A DNA stretch of 64,000 bases. Source: Gloeobacter violaceus PCC 7421. GTDB lineage: Bacteria; Cyanobacteriota; Cyanobacteriia; Gloeobacterales; Gloeobacteraceae. This document shows positions 41,623 to 53,852 of the stretch, piece after piece. Position numbers and translations under genes: made by a program. Every line of letters starts with the position of its first letter. Position 1 is the first letter of the stretch. The notes beneath the pieces were generated by a model, which worked only from the letters and a program-made list of their open reading frames with translations, was not told where the DNA came from and did no database searches. The DNA lies in contig NC_005125.1 of the NCBI RefSeq assembly GCF_000011385.1, forward strand, positions 4,402,001 to 4,466,000, given 5' to 3'.

Positions 41623-41675
41623 ACCGCGATTCCCATCGCAGCGTCCGCACCTGTAGATTCAATCGGAGAGATAAC

Positions 41676-42842
41676 ATGCGCTTTTTTGTCCTTCTGGCAC
41701 TGTCGGGCTTGCTGGCCGGTTCGGCTTTGCCGCCGATCCCGGCGGCGGCGGCCCCTGTCGCCCTCGCTTTGCAAAGCGAAGCCTTGCTGGCCGACGGCTC
41801 TTACGCCGTCGCTGAGGCTGAGCAGGTGGTGCTCTTCGACCGCGAACGGGGCAAGGAACTGCCCGTGTACGCGGCCTATCCGCAGCAACCGGGGCGCTAC
41901 CCGGTGATTGTCTTCTCCCACGGCTCGGGCGGTTCCGGCAAAGAAAAAGCGCTGATCGCCCGCTTCTGGGCCAGCCGCGGCTACGTGTGCCTCAATCCGA
42001 CCCACGCCGATTCGATCGCCCTGCAGCGGGCCACAGGTCAGGCCCAAACGGGCGGCATGCTCCAGTCGGCAAAGCGCCTGGCCAATGATCCGGGGGCCTG
42101 GCAAAACCGCGCCCGGGACATTTCTTTTGTGATCAGCTCCCTGGGAGAACTCGAAAGGCAGATCCCCGACCTCAAGGGCAAACCCGATGCGCGCAGCATC
42201 GGAGTGGGCGGCCACTCGCTGGGGGCTTTTAGCGCCATGCTCATCGGTGGCGCACGCATCGATATTCCCGGTGGCGGGCGGGCCGTGAGCTTTGCAGACA
42301 ACCGGGTGCGGGCGATTCTGTTGCTCTCCGCCCAGGGCAGCGGCCAGCAAGGTCTCACCGAGCGCTCGTGGGAGGCGATGAACCGCCCGACGATGACGGT
42401 GACCGGCTCGCTCGACCGGGGGATCACAGGCCAGGGGCCGCAGGAGAAGCTCGAACCGTTTACTTTCGCCCCGCGCGGCGACAAGTACGGCCTGCTGATC
42501 GAAGGGGCGAACCACGGCTCCTACACCGGCCGCTTCGCCGGTGAGGAGGGTGAGCCGGCCCAGGGGGCGGGCGGGATGGGCAATCTCCCCCCGCAGATGC
42601 GCGAAAGACTGCGCGAGAGGCTGCGCGGCGGGCAAGGGGGTGGCGGCATGGAAGGAGGACGCATGGGCGGCGGCCCGCGCGCCCGCGGCGGCGACCAGAC
42701 GGCCATCTTCGGCTATGTCAAAGTGGCTACTGCCGCCTTTTGGGACGCTTATCTCAAAGGCGACGAGCGCGCCCGTGCCTATCTGCAGTCCGACGGGCTG
42801 GCGGAATTTAGCAACGGGGCGGTCGAATTGCGCCGCAAGTAG
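41676..42842 (+). CDS. Secreted alpha/beta hydrolase (dienelactone hydrolase/PAF acetylhydrolase-like)
   Basis: The protein has 388 residues from the ATG at 41676, with CGGAGAG upstream. The signal peptide is RFFVLLALSGLLAGSALPPI ending PAAAA. The hydrolase core has the oxyanion segment VIVFSHGSGGSGKEKALI, nucleophile Ser in VGGHSLGAFSAML and a late His in IEGANHGSYTG. A Gly/Met/Arg-rich low-complexity insert (GGQGGGGMEGGRMGGGPRA, about residues 315-340) sits before the final helix AFWDAYLKGDERARAYL and is unusual for the family. Esterase activity on an exported lipid or glycan ester is plausible. It ends 3 bp from the convergent first paralogue of the propeller cluster. Confidence 0.85.
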   Translation: MRFFVLLALSGLLAGSALPPIPAAAAPVALALQSEALLADGSYAVAEAEQVVLFDRERGKELPVYAAYPQQPGRYPVIVFSHGSGGSGKEKALIARFWASRGYVCLNPTHADSIALQRATGQAQTGGMLQSAKRLANDPGAWQNRARDISFVISSLGELERQIPDLKGKPDARSIGVGGHSLGAFSAMLIGGARIDIPGGGRAVSFADNRVRAILLLSAQGSGQQGLTERSWEAMNRPTMTVTGSLDRGITGQGPQEKLEPFTFAPRGDKYGLLIEGANHGSYTGRFAGEEGEPAQGAGGMGNLPPQMRERLRERLRGGQGGGGMEGGRMGGGPRARGGDQTAIFGYVKVATAAFWDAYLKGDERARAYLQSDGLAEFSNGAVELRRK

Positions 42843-42845
42843 CTT

Positions 42846-44075
42846 TTACTGCTTCGGACCGAGCCCGGTGTCGCAGCGGTAGATCAGTGGAAAAGAGCCG
42901 CCCTCCGGCTTTGCCGCGTAGTAAAGAAAAGGACCGAGGTCGGTGACGTAGACCTCTGGATCTTTGCGCACCTTTTCGCTCGGGTCGCTGCACTGGCGAA
43001 AATTGGGCGCAGCAGGGTCGATTCCGGAAAGCCAAATGTCGGAAGGCAGATCCTTGTTGGTGGACAGCGGATTGTCCGAGGTGACCATGAACAGGTACGA
43101 TTTGCCGTTGTGCTTGAGAAATTCAGGCGACTGGATAAACTTGCCCTTCGACGGCGGCTTCACCGAGTAAACCTTGCTCCAGGCCCCGTTTACCTTGCGG
43201 TAGACCCCAAGGCTGCTCTCATTGATGAGAGTGAAAAAAAGATACTCTTCTGCGTATTCGGGCGCCTGCCACATAAAGATGCTTTCTTTGGGACCGTTGT
43301 CAAAGGTCAACTGTTCGCGCACTTTGGTGTCGACATCGTACAAAAACGCCTGACGCACGCCGTCCACTACAGCGCTGTAGGTCAACGCCCGCCGCCCTTC
43401 CACCCAGCGCAGGCCCTGCACGTCGTCGCCGGGGACCAACCCTTCGCTGCCGGAATCGTCAAGATTGCGCCATTTGGTGAGAATGTCGGTGGTAGCCTGC
43501 TGGGTCGTTCGTTGCAAGTAAGAGATGCGCGGGACGCTATCACCCCGATCCAGGCTGCCGATGGGCGCAAAGCGGTTGTTGCCGAACGGGAGCACGCTGG
43601 AGACCCACACCTCGCCCTCTTTGCGGGCGCGGGCCAGCACCCGCCCGGATGTGGCGGTCGCCACCGTGTACACGATCTGAGGCCCGTACTCCTTCTCGAA
43701 CACCCACTCCGGGCCGTTGCCCACCTCGTTGGGCACCGTCAGCGCACCTTCGCCCACCAGTACCGCCGCTCCGTTGGGAGGCACAAAATTGCCCGTTGCC
43801 CGATCGACGTAGCCGATGAAGACGCGGCCGTCCTGAGCGATCCAGGTGAAGCGGTCGCCCGCCTGATCGAACTCCGGATCAAACAGCCGCACAGTTGGAT
43901 CGGAGACAATCACATCTTCGACCAGTTCCTGGGCGTAACCCGTGGACAGCCATGACAAAACGCCCCACACCGCGGCGAGTACCGCCGGGATCCGACGGGG
44001 GGACCAGCGCAGTCCGCGATTGGATAAACGGCCCGGGAACGTCGGAAAGCAACGATTCTGTGTGCCCTGATACAT
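42846..44075 (-). CDS. Exported propeller-like paralogue 1 of 5
   Basis: The protein has 409 residues with an N-terminal signal-type helix (PAVLAAVWGVLSWLSTGYAQ). Family markers shared with the four neighbours are LFDPEFDQAGDRFTWIAQDG, NGPEWVFEKE, APIGSLDRGD, QAFLYDVDTKVREQLTFD, FMWQAPEY, SDIWLSGIDPAAPNFRQCSD, and VRKDPEVYVTDLGPFLYY near the end. The pattern of WD-like strands is that of a TolB/WD40-type beta-propeller, but no Pfam family is recognised with certainty. It is closest to paralogue 5 (47956-49176), the other minus-strand copy: both have EDVIVSxP...LFDPEFDQ and a final YRCDTxLGP. Confidence 0.75.
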   Translation of the reverse strand: MYQGTQNRCFPTFPGRLSNRGLRWSPRRIPAVLAAVWGVLSWLSTGYAQELVEDVIVSDPTVRLFDPEFDQAGDRFTWIAQDGRVFIGYVDRATGNFVPPNGAAVLVGEGALTVPNEVGNGPEWVFEKEYGPQIVYTVATATSGRVLARARKEGEVWVSSVLPFGNNRFAPIGSLDRGDSVPRISYLQRTTQQATTDILTKWRNLDDSGSEGLVPGDDVQGLRWVEGRRALTYSAVVDGVRQAFLYDVDTKVREQLTFDNGPKESIFMWQAPEYAEEYLFFTLINESSLGVYRKVNGAWSKVYSVKPPSKGKFIQSPEFLKHNGKSYLFMVTSDNPLSTNKDLPSDIWLSGIDPAAPNFRQCSDPSEKVRKDPEVYVTDLGPFLYYAAKPEGGSFPLIYRCDTGLGPKQ

Positions 44076-44383
44076 GCTTGACCGTTCTCGTTGAAAGTCT
44101 GTATTTCATCAACATAAACCGTCGCTCGGCAAGGGCGAAGAAAAATCTTGTAAAGATCTTGCGGCGGATGCAAACAGCGGCTCGCCGTGAAGCGGCAGGA
44201 CTTTCCTGACCCCGTGAGGAATTTTGCGCGTCTGTAATATACTCACTTTGGTTGTCCATCGGCGGGAAACCGGGCGTCTCATGCACTGAATTTCCTGAGC
44301 TCGCCGACAACCCGTTCACCATTGCCTGGAGAAACTACGCCCTCACGATTCACCGTATTTGTCAACCCTACGGCACCTTCTCG
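44076..44383. other. Divergent intergenic region between propeller paralogues 1 and 2
   Basis: This 308-bp stretch has no recognised gene. It carries the promoters of paralogue 1 (minus) and paralogue 2 (plus). The open frame of paralogue 2 extends back to an ATG at 44252, but the added residues do not resemble the other family members. GTAATATACT (44234-44243) is the only strong -10-like string. Confidence 0.5.
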
Positions 44384-45520
44384 ATGCTGAATACTTTCTA
44401 CAAATTGCCGGCTATTGTGTCACTATCTTTCGCGATCTTCTGCGGTACTAGCCTACACAAAACTGCATTTGCCCAGTTCGTACCGACCGACATATTAATT
44501 ACCGAAGCACCGATTATCGACCCGGAATTCGACCAGGCCAACGCCCGCTTCACCTGGGTCGACAGCGCAGGCGACGTTTGGATCGGCAATGTTGATGCGC
44601 AGACGGGCAACTTCGACCCCCTCGACGGTAAAAGCATCGCAGTGGACACCGGGGCAGTACCCGTTGAAGTGATCGGCAACGGCCCGGAGTGGGTCTTTAC
44701 CAGTGCCGGTCCGCAGATTGTCTACACCAAGTTCGACAATAGCCGCTACGCCCTCGGCCGCGCCCTTCAGCAGAACGGTGTCTGGATCGGGGGGTTTTTG
44801 GAGAACGGCCAGGGTCGCTTCGGACCGATAGGCAGTCTTGATCGCAGCGATCCGGCCCCGCGCATCTCCTATATCGGCCGCGATGAGAACCGCAAACAGG
44901 TGACTTTTTGGCGAGGGCTCGACGAACCGTCCACCGAAGAGGTAATCCCCGGTTCCCAACCGCCGGGCGGGCGCTGGGTCGACGGCAAGCGGGCTCTGGT
45001 GCTCACCGAAAGAGTCGGCAGCGGGCGGCAGGGGTTTATGTACGACGTCGATGCCGGTGTGCTCGAACAGCTCACCTTTGATGCCGGCATCAAAAAAGCC
45101 ATCTTCATGTGGCAGGCACCCGAGTACGGCAACGAGTACCTCTTCTTTACACTGATTGACGAAAAAGAGATTGGCATCTATCGCAAGATCGACGGAGTTT
45201 GGACGAAGATCAACACGGTGAAGCCGCCGTCGACAGGCAATTTTCTCTGGTCGCCGGAACTGCTGGTGTACGAGGGAAAATCCTACATCTTTATGGTCGC
45301 TTCGACCAGCCGGGATCAGGCAAGTAAGACGGTTCCCACGGACATCTGGCTGGCGGGGATCGATCCGGAGGCCCCCTTCTACCGGCAACTGAGCGATGCG
45401 ACCAGCCGGGTGCGCAAAGATCCGGAGGTCTTCGTCACCGACGATGGTCCGATGATTTACTACCTAGCCTTTCTCACGCCGCTCACCTCGGCTATCTACC
45501 GGTGCGAGACCGGGCTTTGA
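44384..45520 (+). CDS. Exported propeller-like paralogue 2 of 5
   Basis: The protein has 378 residues from the ATG at 44384, chosen because it puts the signal peptide (PAIVSLSFAIFCGTSLHKTA then FAQ) at the N-terminus. Family markers are IIDPEFDQANARFTWVDSAG, GNGPEWVFTSAGPQIVYTKF, GPIGSLDRSDPAPRISYIG, FMYDVDAGVLEQLTFDAG, FMWQAPEYGNEY, VPTDIWLAGIDPEAPFYRQL and VRKDPEVFVTDDGPMIYYLA. It starts a plus-strand run of three paralogues. The segment 45329-45363 is identical to 46507-46541 in paralogue 3, which indicates gene conversion or recent duplication. Confidence 0.75.
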   Translation: MLNTFYKLPAIVSLSFAIFCGTSLHKTAFAQFVPTDILITEAPIIDPEFDQANARFTWVDSAGDVWIGNVDAQTGNFDPLDGKSIAVDTGAVPVEVIGNGPEWVFTSAGPQIVYTKFDNSRYALGRALQQNGVWIGGFLENGQGRFGPIGSLDRSDPAPRISYIGRDENRKQVTFWRGLDEPSTEEVIPGSQPPGGRWVDGKRALVLTERVGSGRQGFMYDVDAGVLEQLTFDAGIKKAIFMWQAPEYGNEYLFFTLIDEKEIGIYRKIDGVWTKINTVKPPSTGNFLWSPELLVYEGKSYIFMVASTSRDQASKTVPTDIWLAGIDPEAPFYRQLSDATSRVRKDPEVFVTDDGPMIYYLAFLTPLTSAIYRCETGL

Positions 45521-45591
45521 CCCCACTGGCACCGCTTTGCGCCTGCAATCCGTTGGGTTGACAACCTTTTTGCGATGGGAGGAATTCCTCA

Positions 45592-46710
45592 ATGTGCACT
45601 CGGCAATGCGTCGGAACTGCTCTGGCGCTTTTCCTGGCAACCCTGGCGTGGGCACCCGCCGCCCTGCCCGCACCGCTCGACGTTCAGGTCTCTGAACTCG
45701 GCGTGATCGACCCGGAGTTTGATTCGCTTGCGGCCCGCTTCACCTGGGTGGACACCTTCGGAAGCGTCTGGATCGGCCATGTGGACCCGGCTACGGGTGA
45801 CTTCGTTCCCCGCTCGGGTCAAAGCGTGCTGGTGGATACCGGGGCGGTACCCCTCGGCGCGGTCGTCAACGGTCCGGAATGGGTCTACAGCGCTTCCGGG
45901 CCACAAATCGTCTTTACAAAATATGATCAGGCCCGGCGCAGGGCGATCGCCCGAGCCCGAGCCGGTGCAGAGGGCTGGCGCAGCGAAGTGCTCCAGGGTG
46001 GCAGCAACCGTTTTCAGCCCATCGGCAGCCTCGACAGAAGTGATCCCCAACCCCGCATTGCCTACACCGGACCACAGCAGCAAGTCCTCTGGCGGCAACT
46101 GGATGATCCGGCCAGCGAGACGGTGGTCCCCGACGCCGATCCCGGCATCCGCTGGGTTCCCGGGCGGCGGGCGATGACCTACAGCGCCGTGGTGGACGGC
46201 GGGCGCCAGGCGTTTTTGTACGATATCGACACCCAAGTGCGCGAACAACTCACCTTCGACGCCGGGGCGAAAAAAGCCGTTTACCTGTGGCAGGCGCCGG
46301 AATACAACAGTGAGTATTTACTGTTTGCCCTGGTAGACCAGAGCAGCATCGGGGTCTACCGCAAACTTGGGGAAGCTTGGAGCCGCATCGCCACACTCAA
46401 GCCACCTGCGGTAGGCAACTATCTCTTTTCACCCGAGGTGTTCGTCTACGGCGGCAAATCTTATATCTTCATGGCTACCTCCACCAGCCGGGACCAGGCG
46501 AGCAAAACGGTTCCCACGGACATCTGGCTGGCGGGGATCGAGCCGGCGGCACCCTTCTACCGGCAACTGAGCGATGCAACGCCAAGGGTCCGCAAAGATC
46601 CGGAATTTTTTCTGACTGCACAAGGTCCAGTTGTTTTTTACCTGGCCTACCTCGACCCCGAGACTACGGCAATCTTCCGCTGCAATGCCGGTCTGGGTGT
46701 TCTCCGGTAG
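45592..46710 (+). CDS. Exported propeller-like paralogue 3 of 5
   Basis: The protein has 372 residues, with GGGAGGAAT about 9 nt before the ATG, the best ribosome site of the cluster. The signal peptide is VGTALALFLATLAWAPAALP. Family markers are VIDPEFDSLAARFTWVDTFG, VNGPEWVYSASGPQIVFTKY, QPIGSLDRSDPQPRIAYTG, FLYDIDTQVREQLTFDAGAK, YLWQAPEYNSEYLLFAL and VPTDIWLAGIEPAAPFYRQL. It lies 71 bp after paralogue 2 and 36 bp before paralogue 4 and is likely co-transcribed with them. No catalytic residues were recognised. Confidence 0.75.
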   Translation: MCTRQCVGTALALFLATLAWAPAALPAPLDVQVSELGVIDPEFDSLAARFTWVDTFGSVWIGHVDPATGDFVPRSGQSVLVDTGAVPLGAVVNGPEWVYSASGPQIVFTKYDQARRRAIARARAGAEGWRSEVLQGGSNRFQPIGSLDRSDPQPRIAYTGPQQQVLWRQLDDPASETVVPDADPGIRWVPGRRAMTYSAVVDGGRQAFLYDIDTQVREQLTFDAGAKKAVYLWQAPEYNSEYLLFALVDQSSIGVYRKLGEAWSRIATLKPPAVGNYLFSPEVFVYGGKSYIFMATSTSRDQASKTVPTDIWLAGIEPAAPFYRQLSDATPRVRKDPEFFLTAQGPVVFYLAYLDPETTAIFRCNAGLGVLR

Positions 46711-46746
46711 CGCCACCTGTTTTGCACCTGCAAGAGGATAGATCCG

Positions 46747-47904
46747 ATGCTTGTATCACTCGGTATCCCCCAGCGGTTCGCCGTGGCCCTTCTACCGGCC
46801 GTCATCGCCTGCAACGCCTGTACCCAGACATCGGCAACAGCCCAGTCCGCGACGCAGGACGTGCAAGTCTCCGAACCCGGCGTGATCGACCCGGAATTCG
46901 ACCAACCCAGCGGCCGTTTTACCTGGGTCGACGCCCAGGGCAGTGTCTGGATTGGGCGGGTGGACCGGGCGAGCGGCAATTTTATCCCCCCCTCCGGCAA
47001 AGCGGTCCTCGTCGACACCGGAGCAGTGCCCGCCGACGTGGTCGGCAATGGTCCGGAGTGGGTCTACGGTCAGGCCGGCGCCCAGATCGTCTACACCAAG
47101 TACGACGAAGATGGGGGCTATGCCCTCGGCCGCGCCCGCTTCAGCGGCAAGACCTGGTCGGGGGACATTCTGGAAAACGGTACCGACCGCTTCGGCCCTT
47201 TCGGCAGCCTCGACCGCGCCGACCCGGCCCCGCGCATCTCCTACGTCGGTCGCGATCTTAGCGGCCGACTGGTGAGCTTCTGGCGCGAACTGGCCAATCC
47301 GGCGAGCGAGACGGTGGTGCCGGGAGCGACCTACCCGGGCAGCCGCTGGGTCCCCGGCCGGCGCGCCGTTGTCTTTGTTCAGGAAGCGGGCGGTGTGCGA
47401 CAGGTGTTTACCTACGACATCGACCGGCAGATCTCCGAGCAACTCACCTTCGATCCGGGCCTCAAAAAGGCTCCCTTTCTCTGGCAGGCGCCGGAATTTG
47501 GCGGCGCGCTGGTGCTGCTGGCCCTTGTCGACGAGACGCACCTCGGGCTCTACCGCCGGATTCAAGGGCGCTGGACGCGCTTTGCAACCCTCAAACCCCC
47601 CTCGACGGGCGATTATCTCTGGTCGCCGGAGCCTCTGGTCCACAACGGCAAATCCTATGTGTTCATGGTCACTTCCACGTCCTCAGACTCGCAAAGCCGC
47701 ACCGTTCCTACCGACATCTGGCTGGCGGGCATCGACCCGACCGCACCCTTCTATCGGCAATTGAGCGATGCGACGGCTCGGGTGCGCACCGATCCGGAAG
47801 TGTTTGTCACCGATAACGGGCCCTATATTTACTTTTTGGTCTTTCTGGACCCTGAGACTCCGGCAATTTTGCGGACCGACACCGGGCTTGGACCGTCCCA
47901 ATAA
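46747..47904 (+). CDS. Exported propeller-like paralogue 4 of 5, possible lipoprotein
   Basis: The protein has 385 residues with GAGGATAGA before the ATG. The N-terminus FAVALLPAVIACNACTQTSA contains a lipobox-like VIAC, so this copy may be a lipid-anchored version of the family, unlike the other four with ordinary signal peptides. Family markers are VIDPEFDQPSGRFTWVDAQG, GNGPEWVYGQAGAQIVYTKY, GPFGSLDRADPAPRISYVG, FTYDIDRQISEQLTFDPGLK, FLWQAPEFGGALVLLALVDE, VPTDIWLAGIDPTAPFYRQL and VRTDPEVFVTDNGPYIYFLV. It ends 51 bp from the convergent paralogue 5. Confidence 0.75.
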   Translation: MLVSLGIPQRFAVALLPAVIACNACTQTSATAQSATQDVQVSEPGVIDPEFDQPSGRFTWVDAQGSVWIGRVDRASGNFIPPSGKAVLVDTGAVPADVVGNGPEWVYGQAGAQIVYTKYDEDGGYALGRARFSGKTWSGDILENGTDRFGPFGSLDRADPAPRISYVGRDLSGRLVSFWRELANPASETVVPGATYPGSRWVPGRRAVVFVQEAGGVRQVFTYDIDRQISEQLTFDPGLKKAPFLWQAPEFGGALVLLALVDETHLGLYRRIQGRWTRFATLKPPSTGDYLWSPEPLVHNGKSYVFMVTSTSSDSQSRTVPTDIWLAGIDPTAPFYRQLSDATARVRTDPEVFVTDNGPYIYFLVFLDPETPAILRTDTGLGPSQ

Positions 47905-47955
47905 CAGAGCGCCCCGGTGCCTTCGTGCTCCAGGGCAAGCCGTTTGACAGCACAG

Positions 47956-49176
47956 CTACGGAAGAGGGGGGCCGAGTTTGGTGTCGCAGCGGTAGATCAC
48001 TGCACTTTCACCGGGGGCGGGCACCGCGGAGTAGTAAAGATACGGTCCGCTTTGGGTGATAAAGACCTCGGGGTCTTTGCGGGTCTTCTCCGACGGGTCG
48101 CTGCACTGGTAATAAAAGGGTGCCGCCGAGTCGATGCCCGCCAGCCAGATGTCGGTCAGGGCCGTGCGGGTTGTCGATTGCGGGCTATTGGAGGAAGCCA
48201 TAATCAAGTACGACTTGCCGTTGTACACAAACGGCTCTGGAGATTGAACAAATTTGCCCTTAGAGGGCGGTTTGACCGTGGCTATCTTGGTCCACACCCC
48301 GTCGATTTTGCGGTAGACCCCGAGGCTGCTCTCGTTGGTGAGGGCAAAGAAGATATATTCGTTGTCGAATTCCGGCGCCTGCCACATAAAGACGCTTTCT
48401 TTGGGGCCGGCATCGAAGGTGAGTTGTTCGAACACTTTGGTGTCGACATCGTACAAAAACGCCTGGCGCACGCCGTTGACCACGGCGTTGACCGTCAGCT
48501 GGCGCTTGCCGGGCACCCAGCGCAACCCCTGCACCTGCTCGCCCGGCACCCGCTCCTCGGTCTCGGCATTGTCAAGATCGCGCCACTTAAGAATCAGGGC
48601 CGAACCGTTGTTGACTACTTTGGGAAAAGAAATCCGCGGCTTCGGGTCACCCTTATCGAGGCTGCCGATCGGTCCAAAGCCATTTTTGCCATCCTCCAGA
48701 AAAGACGGCACCCACTTGCTGCCGTCCCACTTGGCCTTGGCCAGAAAGCGCACATCGTTGGCATCGAGGGCCGTGTAGGTGATTTGATCGCCGACACTGG
48801 AGTAGACCCATTCTGGACCATTGCCGACCTCGAGAGTACGCGCGGCGTCCTCTGCCACGAGGCGAAACTTGCCCGAGGGCGGATCGAAGTTGCCCGTTAC
48901 CGGATCGATTTTGCCAATCCAAACTTTGCCGTCGTTGCCAGACCAAACGAAGCGGTTTTCGTCCTGGTCGAACTCCGGATCAAACAGACGGCTATCGGGG
49001 CCGGAGACGATCACGTCTTCTTCGGTGGTCTGTCCGGCAACCGGCTGGGACCAAAGCGCCGATGTCGCCGGAATTAGGGCCGCTGCCGCCAGCGGGATGC
49101 ACACGCCAAGGGACCACTTCAACCAGGTTTTCGCAAGGTGCGTGTCGAGCCAAGAGGGTGCGTGTTTTATAGGCAT
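47956..49176 (-). CDS. Exported propeller-like paralogue 5 of 5
   Basis: The protein has 406 residues. The N-terminus has a hydrophobic signal segment WSLGVCIPLAAAALIPATSA. Family markers are LFDPEFDQDENRFVWSGNDG, VGNGPEWVYSSVGDQITYTA, GPIGSLDKGDPKPRISF, FLYDVDTKVFEQLTFDAG, FMWQAPEFDNEYIFFAL, LTDIWLAGIDSAAPFYYQCS and TRKDPEVFITQSGPYLYYSA. Together with paralogue 1 it shares YRCDTxLGP at the C-terminus, and the Cys pair in QCSDPSEK and YRCDT may form a disulfide in these two copies. It is divergent from uvrA across 345 bp. Confidence 0.75.
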   Translation of the reverse strand: MPIKHAPSWLDTHLAKTWLKWSLGVCIPLAAAALIPATSALWSQPVAGQTTEEDVIVSGPDSRLFDPEFDQDENRFVWSGNDGKVWIGKIDPVTGNFDPPSGKFRLVAEDAARTLEVGNGPEWVYSSVGDQITYTALDANDVRFLAKAKWDGSKWVPSFLEDGKNGFGPIGSLDKGDPKPRISFPKVVNNGSALILKWRDLDNAETEERVPGEQVQGLRWVPGKRQLTVNAVVNGVRQAFLYDVDTKVFEQLTFDAGPKESVFMWQAPEFDNEYIFFALTNESSLGVYRKIDGVWTKIATVKPPSKGKFVQSPEPFVYNGKSYLIMASSNSPQSTTRTALTDIWLAGIDSAAPFYYQCSDPSEKTRKDPEVFITQSGPYLYYSAVPAPGESAVIYRCDTKLGPPLP

Positions 49177-49521
49177 ATGTGAACTTCGTAAAACTACTAA
49201 CGCCTTGATAGTCTAGGACATCTGGCAAAGAAGTCAAGCAAAGTAGCTCGGCTAACTTGCCGAATTCGCCGAGATAATCGGCGCTTTTGATGCACGGTGC
49301 GGTCCGCGGCGGTGGGATTGGCTGCCGAATCTGCCCTTGGCAGGCCATCGGGAGCCCCGCGCGCCTTTACTCGGAAACGGCCGATCGAAAGCACAGCAGC
49401 GCTCGTGAATATCCGTCCATGTCCGTGGTACATTGGACGGCACGCCCGGTTCTGTCATCGGCTTCGGCGGCGGATACCATTGGGTAGCGTTGTTCAGATT
49501 TTTGCAACCAGGGCGCAAGGG
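49177..49521. other. Divergent intergenic region upstream of uvrA
   Basis: These 345 bp hold no gene that can be supported. The uvrA frame is open back to 49297, giving 75 extra residues, but they are Arg/Ala-rich, unlike any UvrA N-terminus, and lack a ribosome site. The region should contain the promoters of uvrA and of propeller paralogue 5. No LexA-box-like dyad was recognised by eye. Confidence 0.5.
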
Positions 49522-52467
<2,946 letters not shown>

Positions 52468-52514
52468 GACGCAGCCAGCAGCGAGATATTTGCTATTCTG
52501 AGCCCAGCTTGAAG

Positions 52515-53852
52515 ATGATTCGGATGCTCAGAACGGTTGGCTGTCTGCTGGCGGCACTCTACTGCTTCGTGTGGCTGCGGATTCCCGAGGACGTGTTGGG
52601 GGTGGTGCTGCCGATTCAGCGCCTGGTGGGCTGGCTCGGGCTGGTGGTTGTGCTTGCGGCACTGCTGTTCAATGTCGCTCCCGGGCCGGGGCGGCTCGCC
52701 CGGGGATACCTGGGGGCTGTGGTGTTGTTTGTGGTCTATCTGGGCGTGGACTTTTTGTTGCGATTTTTGGGCAATCCGGACGTGTTCAACGCCTACTTCG
52801 ATCTGCCCCTGTTCGCTTCGGATATAGCAAAATATCTTGCCTCGTTTGCCTCGGCCTATGTGGTCTATTTCACCCTGCGCCGCCATTCGCAAATTGAGAA
52901 TACGCTCATTCGGCTGCTGTTGCTTTCAGGAGGTCTTTCAATCGCGGCGGCCTATGGTTTCCTATTTCTCTATTTCCAGGGTTTTACGACGGACAACGAA
53001 GTGCTTGCCCACCCCTTCGGCGGTTACCTGGGAGTATGGGAAACCGGCGGTGCGCTGCCCCGGTTGGCGGGGACTACTGCCGAACCGCAGCAGTTTGCAA
53101 TCGTCTTTTTGACGCCGCTGCTATTGATGCTTACAAGACGCTATATCGGGCGTTTTTGGCCGATTGCTCTGTTGGGAGCGGCGGCCCTGGCCATCTCTCA
53201 ATCCAAATTTTCGATCGTCTCAATTTTGCTGGTGTTACTCTATCTGTTCTGGGTCTACCAGCGCTTTCGGGTGGGCATTGTCTTGGGGGCCGCGGTGCTG
53301 CTTCCGCCTCTGGGCTACTACATCGCTACACTTCCTACCTTTAGCGATACCTTTGACGATCTATTGGTGAGCGGCGCGGTCGTCGAGCGTGCCTCGAACG
53401 CAGGCAATCTGGTGTCGATTATTCTTGCGAATTTGTTCACGGGGATCGGTGCCGGGCAGTACGGACCGTTCGTCGGTTATGTGGCCATGGGCAACAAGGA
53501 TTTTCTGCCGAAGACTTACTATCCCAACTTCGATTTTCTGAAGATTTTTGCAGAGACCGGCTTGATCGGCTTCGGGCTGGTCGTGGCAATGCTTGCGCGC
53601 TTGTTCGGCAACTTTTTCCGGGCACTGGCGCTTATGGACGACGAGCAGCGGGAGCGCCTGCTTGCTCTGCTGTTGGGCGCTATCGGGATTGTGCTCAATA
53701 TGTTCATCGGCTACGAATTTCTGCACGTCTTCTTCTGGGTGAACATCGGCTTTTTGATGTTCCTGGCTGAAAGGGCGTTCGAATCGACCGAGCCCGCAAC
53801 GAAAGACCCGAGCGGGGTCGAGCCGAATGCCGTGGGTGCCTACCGCGTCTGA
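52515..53852 (+). CDS. O-antigen ligase/polymerase-like multi-pass membrane protein
   Basis: The protein has about 445 residues from the ATG at 52515 (a TTG at 52509 is an alternative). At least ten hydrophobic segments are visible, from VGCLLAALYCFVWLRI at the N-terminus to IGIVLNMFIGYEFLHVFFWV near the C-terminus. A large periplasmic loop around residues 270-345 holds NLFTGIGAGQYGPFVGYVAM and FLKIFAETGLIGFGLVVAML, the typical G-x-G-x(n)-H/N-x(n)-E-x-G-L-x-G arrangement of Wzy/WaaL-type proteins. It would polymerise or ligate lipid-linked glycans in the inner membrane. No sugar transferase is adjacent. It follows uvrA by 47 bp but is probably a separate function. Confidence 0.8.
   Translation: MIRMLRTVGCLLAALYCFVWLRIPEDVLGVVLPIQRLVGWLGLVVVLAALLFNVAPGPGRLARGYLGAVVLFVVYLGVDFLLRFLGNPDVFNAYFDLPLFASDIAKYLASFASAYVVYFTLRRHSQIENTLIRLLLLSGGLSIAAAYGFLFLYFQGFTTDNEVLAHPFGGYLGVWETGGALPRLAGTTAEPQQFAIVFLTPLLLMLTRRYIGRFWPIALLGAAALAISQSKFSIVSILLVLLYLFWVYQRFRVGIVLGAAVLLPPLGYYIATLPTFSDTFDDLLVSGAVVERASNAGNLVSIILANLFTGIGAGQYGPFVGYVAMGNKDFLPKTYYPNFDFLKIFAETGLIGFGLVVAMLARLFGNFFRALALMDDEQRERLLALLLGAIGIVLNMFIGYEFLHVFFWVNIGFLMFLAERAFESTEPATKDPSGVEPNAVGAYRV

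Follow-up and report, generated by a model that had tools for sequence, protein, structure and literature searches.

Five adjacent genes of an exported, predicted seven-bladed propeller family in a divergence island of the Gloeobacter violaceus genome

Here we describe an array of five paralogous genes that occupies 6.3 kb of the single-contig genome of Gloeobacter violaceus (4,659,019 bases; G000 in the comparisons below). The window analysed, a stretch of 64,000 nucleotides, covers positions 4402001-4466000 of that genome, and the coordinates in Table 1 are counted from its first base. All five open reading frames lie exactly where a preliminary description, made from the sequence alone, had placed them, and they are 48-58% identical to one another over nearly their full length, with about 110 invariant columns in the five-copy alignment, far above chance. 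Most of the motifs by which the genes had been grouped stand: NGPEWV, QLTFD, WQAPE and DIWL(A/S)GI occur in all five copies, but PEFDQ in only four (copy 3 reads PEFDS), and the pattern GSLDR(S/K)D has to be widened to GSLD(R/K)(G/S/A)D, since copies 1 to 5 read GSLDRGD, GSLDRSD, GSLDRSD, GSLDRAD and GSLDKGD. The outer pair, copies 1 and 5, had also been credited with cysteines missing from the inner trio; this holds for the cysteine of QCSD, which is private to copies 1 and 5, but not for the RC cysteine near the C-terminus, which copies 2 and 3 carry as well. Outside the array, the extra QC cysteine of the outer-pair subfamily is also present in two members from another Gloeobacter genome (G294). 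The lipobox noted in copy 4 is there, but it competes with a conventional signal-peptidase site of the AxA type (ATAQ) further on, so its lipidation is ambiguous. The identity of the 35-bp segment between copies 2 and 3 is indeed exact, and copies 1 and 5 have an exact 33-bp tract in common that had been overlooked. With ten pairs tested, both tracts proved longer than in all 300 synonymous-codon shuffles, which suggests that they may have arisen by short gene-conversion events.

Table 1. Features of the propeller array and its surroundings (window coordinates)
Feature	Position	Strand	Description	Basis or remarks
Alpha/beta hydrolase	41670..42842	+	exported; PAF-AH / chlorophyllase-like	PF03403, E 1e-6; convergent with copy 1
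Divergence island	42500..49500	.	57-91% nucleotide identity to G296 and G295 inside, 93-98% in flanks	boundaries approximate
Copy 1	42846..44075	-	exported seven-bladed propeller (predicted), outer-pair subfamily	QC and RC cysteines; ORF, alignment, tree, signal scan
Copy 2	44384..45520	+	exported propeller, inner subfamily	mature form modelled seven-bladed, pLDDT 89.8
Copy 3	45592..46710	+	exported propeller, inner subfamily	exact 35-bp tract common with copy 2
Copy 4	46747..47904	+	exported propeller	possible lipobox VIAC (residues 19-22)
Copy 5	47956..49176	-	exported propeller, outer-pair subfamily	QC and RC cysteines; modelled seven-bladed, pLDDT 87.9
uvrA-like ORF	49297..52467	+	right flank of the island	true start probably near 49500

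The five proteins belong to an exported propeller family that is absent from Pfam and NCBIfam. In profile searches neither the five copies nor 25 family members had a Pfam match above cut-off; NCBIfam likewise gave none over cut-off, just weak TolB matches to several members (best E 2.9e-4), and hmmsearch of PDB chains, with E values up to 10, returned no solved relative. Signal-like N-termini are found in nearly all family members, usually with AxA/Q-type sites, and those of the five copies are of the Sec type. Together with the predicted propellers, these results support the preliminary designation of an unidentified exported propeller family. The window had no match in Rfam, and a structured-RNA reading was rejected on that ground.

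AlphaFold models of mature copy 2 and of copy 5, each built from nine sequences, arrange their strands as seven blades (pTM 0.87 and 0.85; pLDDT in Table 1). As a prediction, the complete seven-bladed beta-propeller is firm; it carries little information on function. The top VIA-align match of both models is a PLL/PHL lectin of Photorhabdus (copy 2: Z 24.1, 2.8 A, 285 residues aligned; copy 5: Z 23.9, 3.1 A, 289 aligned), and an S9 carboxypeptidase propeller comes within 1 Z of it (23.2 and 23.4), with WD40 and other propellers just below. Propeller folds are functionally promiscuous, and since unrelated propellers tie in Z, the modelled fold is no proof of sugar binding. The fold does bear on how the shared motifs are to be read. 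Along the sequence, DPEF, NGPEW, PxGSxD, RWV, WxAPE, SPE(P)F and R(K)DPE(V)F are spaced about 45-56 residues apart, one per blade, and five of the seven blades begin with the consensus x-P-E-aromatic. PEFDQ, NGPEWV and WQAPE thus appear to be mostly one blade motif repeated round the ring, rather than separate signatures. Because the motif recurs once per blade, the conserved residues would chiefly form the blades and the opening of the central channel, and for the same reason a catalytic-motif reading was rejected.

In the G. violaceus genome there are nine family copies, four of them dispersed outside the array. The other Gloeobacter genomes yielded 13 matches (G294, 4.72 Mb), 9 matches (G295, counting the pieces of one broken copy) and 7 matches (G296, 4.92 Mb main contig), while among further Gloeobacterales G293 has 8, contig-end fragments included, G292 has a single member and three more genomes have none. 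Searching the wider cyanobacteria with two profiles, in draws of 292 and 386 genomes, added G331 alone. Three adjacent copies lie on a plasmid of Hymenobacter canadensis. The first (L103:8456-9879) is split by a frameshift, with a T9SS sorting tail (PF18962, E 5e-11) on its second part; the remaining two carry a lipobox at the N-terminus and look like lipoproteins. In the record, the frameshifted propeller is annotated as two separate proteins. The G331 gene lies downstream of a gene for a beta-lactamase-family serine hydrolase, and two insertion-sequence copies flank the locus (L104:5772-6917 and L104:12324-13469), identical at 1098 of 1098 bases of the ORF. Both the plasmid location and these flanking copies suggest that the family may have moved horizontally. 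The insertion-sequence pair encloses the serine hydrolase and propeller genes together, in the manner of a composite transposon. Phage origin was also considered and rejected: phage records and viral contigs held no family relatives, and the Foldseek viral-library matches were generic propellers.

In the maximum-likelihood tree, copies 1 and 5 group with three genes of G294 (support 89/87) and form a clade with their orthologues (95/89); the dispersed copies at L077, L079 and L080 join the inner trio with weak support (93/66). On this tree the outer pair and the inner trio stem from two older subfamilies. A simple recent tandem expansion was rejected, since the tree splits the two sets and places dispersed copies among the trio, and it is opposed as well by a remnant of copy 4 kept in relatives. 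In the close relatives G295 and G296, where no orthologue of copy 3 was found, the final 40 or so codons of a copy-4-like gene (VRTDPEVF...DTGLGP) come immediately after copy 2, so that deletion has removed copy 3 and the bulk of copy 4 there. Copy 1 of G295 (L068:11254-12614) is broken into two ORFs in different frames, by a frameshift or an assembly error; its orthologue in G296 is intact.

The array coincides with an island of divergence from G296 and G295 (Table 1), within which gene identity is mostly 76-85%; the two relatives are 93-99% alike throughout the region. Between G000 and G296, dS is 0.92 for copy 1, 0.76 for copy 2 and 0.64 for copy 5, whereas the glycosyltransferase, hydrolase and uvrA genes on the two sides give 0.13-0.25, and 45 coding-plausible genes hand-picked from sampled loci give a background median of 0.17 (maximum 0.44). 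Beyond uvrA, which itself has a dS of 0.18-0.20 in these comparisons, the next gene (52383-53849) again shows raised values against G296 and G295 (0.43-0.46). The dN/dS ratio is 0.10-0.15 for the array copies and 0.10-0.19 across all orthologous pairs tested for G000 against G296, which shows that the proteins are maintained by purifying selection. The description of the array as diversifying can be kept only with an altered meaning: a divergent haplotype island, gene loss and conversion-like tracts are in evidence, but the proteins themselves are constrained. Positive selection is rejected for the orthologous pairs taken as wholes, with ratios of about 0.1-0.15, and a replaced or anciently diverged haplotype is the better explanation of the island. 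Elsewhere in the genome, the dispersed copy at L078 has a raised dS (0.38-0.57) and its adjoining SBBP gene an ordinary one (0.14-0.18); the other three dispersed copies are ordinary.

What surrounds the family genes gives some idea of the company they keep. The convergent arrangement of copy 1 with the hydrolase gene is kept in G295, G296 and G292, where it involves the only family copy and a hydrolase 37% identical to that of the window. Another group, the c3-type hydrolases, numbers five in G000, of which one lies immediately next to a family gene and another about 4 kb from one; its single member in G294 is located between family genes. Sulfatases and a PhoD phosphatase are also among the neighbours. 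Several family genes, by comparison, have ordinary neighbours (a transporter, an aminotransferase, Msr, AnmK), and with so many copies beside housekeeping genes, hydrolase linkage is not supported as a general rule; the association, noticed post hoc, is taken as suggestive. The association with SBBP genes is stronger. These adjoin family genes in G000 and G294 and lie about 2 kb away in G293; in G292 (L092:7357-10617) the sole family member carries DUF7948 and SBBP domains as a fusion, and no other SBBP ORF was found in that genome; and next to the Hymenobacter array lies a related protein (E 8e-10). Fusions to other domains of extracellular type are to FG-GAP in G294 and to PPC in G331. One region of G000 (L078:1468-13504) is a same-strand island of exported proteins, in which a single family propeller stands with an SBBP propeller, an FG-GAP protein and two each of sulfatases and c3 hydrolases.

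Among known systems, the PLL/PHL lectins are the closest in form, being single-domain seven-bladed propellers of similar size that lead the structural matches for both models (Z about 24). They too come in multiple copies, with five homologues in the genome of P. laumondii (PMC12203525), and inter-blade sugar-binding sites have been described for them (PMC6943638), with fucose/galactose binding as a criterion of the family. They differ from the present family in sequence, at 9-13% identity and with no PLL/PHL chain among the hmmsearch hits in the PDB, even with E values of up to 10 allowed, and the proteins described here have their own x-P-E blade motif and export signals. TolB/PD40 proteins give weak partial matches, and the blade-start motif resembles the PD40 repeat, but the TolB propeller has six blades rather than seven. 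The propeller domain of S9 prolyl-oligopeptidases is seven-bladed (Z 22-23), and exported alpha/beta hydrolases recur as neighbours here; the five copies, however, end at the last blade without a fused C-terminal alpha/beta hydrolase domain, the hydrolases being separate genes. SBBP proteins (PF06739) are likewise exported propellers, recurring beside or fused to the family, but with a different repeat sequence, and the SBBP model matches the family domain in none of 25 members, the match in G292 falling only in the fused N-terminal part.

On this evidence we tentatively propose, as a possibility to which we give somewhat less than even weight, that the proteins are exported, non-enzymatic ligand-binding propellers, probably either lectin-like or polymer-binding. 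Each would be a single-domain module that binds a carbohydrate or some other polymer outside the cytoplasm, whether periplasmic or on the outer surface, and works alongside the exported hydrolases (esterase-like, sulfatase, PhoD phosphatase) and SBBP propellers, which may be its partners; the paralogues would differ in ligand preference and so divide the labour. For Gloeobacter we infer a possible outer-surface location by analogy with the Hymenobacter relatives and their lipoboxes or T9SS sorting tail.

An alternative that we think unlikely is that these are envelope scaffolds, TolB-like propellers for protein-protein contacts that organise other propellers and hydrolases without binding glycan. 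The weak TolB matches and the association with SBBP, FG-GAP and PPC domains are what this leads one to expect; yet the TolB model (NF002183 / TIGR02800) scores just 14-18 bits against a cut-off of 405, the N-terminal alpha/beta domain of TolB is absent, leaving a mature protein that is propeller alone, and the presence of 7-13 paralogues in each Gloeobacter genome points to varied targets more than to one scaffold. A shade less probable still is an enzymatic role, as glycan lyases or hydrolases of the seven-bladed PL42 / GH145 group with the Asp, Glu and Arg residues at the blade starts as active site. Structural matches do include a PL42-type rhamnose-glucuronate lyase (Z 21.4), oligogalacturonate lyase (Z 20.6-21.0) and BT3686-type glycoside hydrolases (Z 20.3), and D37, E39, E93, E238, E283, R335 and D337/E339 (numbering of the first alignment row) are highly conserved. 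PL42/GH145 chemistry, however, uses a catalytic His, and no His column is invariant or nearly so in 25 members; the conserved acids recur once per blade, as structural residues would; and the libraries gave no match over cut-off. GH43 (PF04616), a five-bladed propeller with a catalytic carboxylate triad, differs from our seven-bladed models and reaches 12.6 bits in copy 5 against a gathering cut-off of 32.2 (best of 25 members, E 0.0018). Nor was any well-studied enzyme family found whose catalytic residues are present in each of the five copies, though an active site built from residues not recognised in this analysis is conceivable.

Two further readings concern the history of the locus. Neutral birth and death, with redundant exported propellers under weak selection and an island introgressed by chance from a diverged Gloeobacter, would account for the deletions that took copy 3 and all but a remnant of copy 4 from both relatives, the frameshifted copy 1 of G295 and the ordinary dS of three of the four dispersed loci; we regard it as improbable, the low dN/dS of every orthologous pair tested arguing that the proteins are maintained. 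At the speculative end, and improbable, is a haplotype-exchanging recognition locus, whose whole propeller sets would be swapped among Gloeobacter lineages when recombination takes place in the hydrolase and uvrA regions on its two sides. The sets would persist as old, diverged haplotypes because the partners that they recognise vary, be it neighbour-cell glycans, phage or substrate.

Under our tentative proposal of polymer-binding propellers, the SBBP proteins and exported hydrolases offer testable partners. The family, absent from Pfam and NCBIfam, is expanded in thylakoid-less, early-branching cyanobacteria, a group whose cell surface is little known, and is held in common with a plasmid of the Bacteroidota; the sharp island between close Gloeobacter genomes marks a candidate site for the exchange of envelope proteins by recombination.
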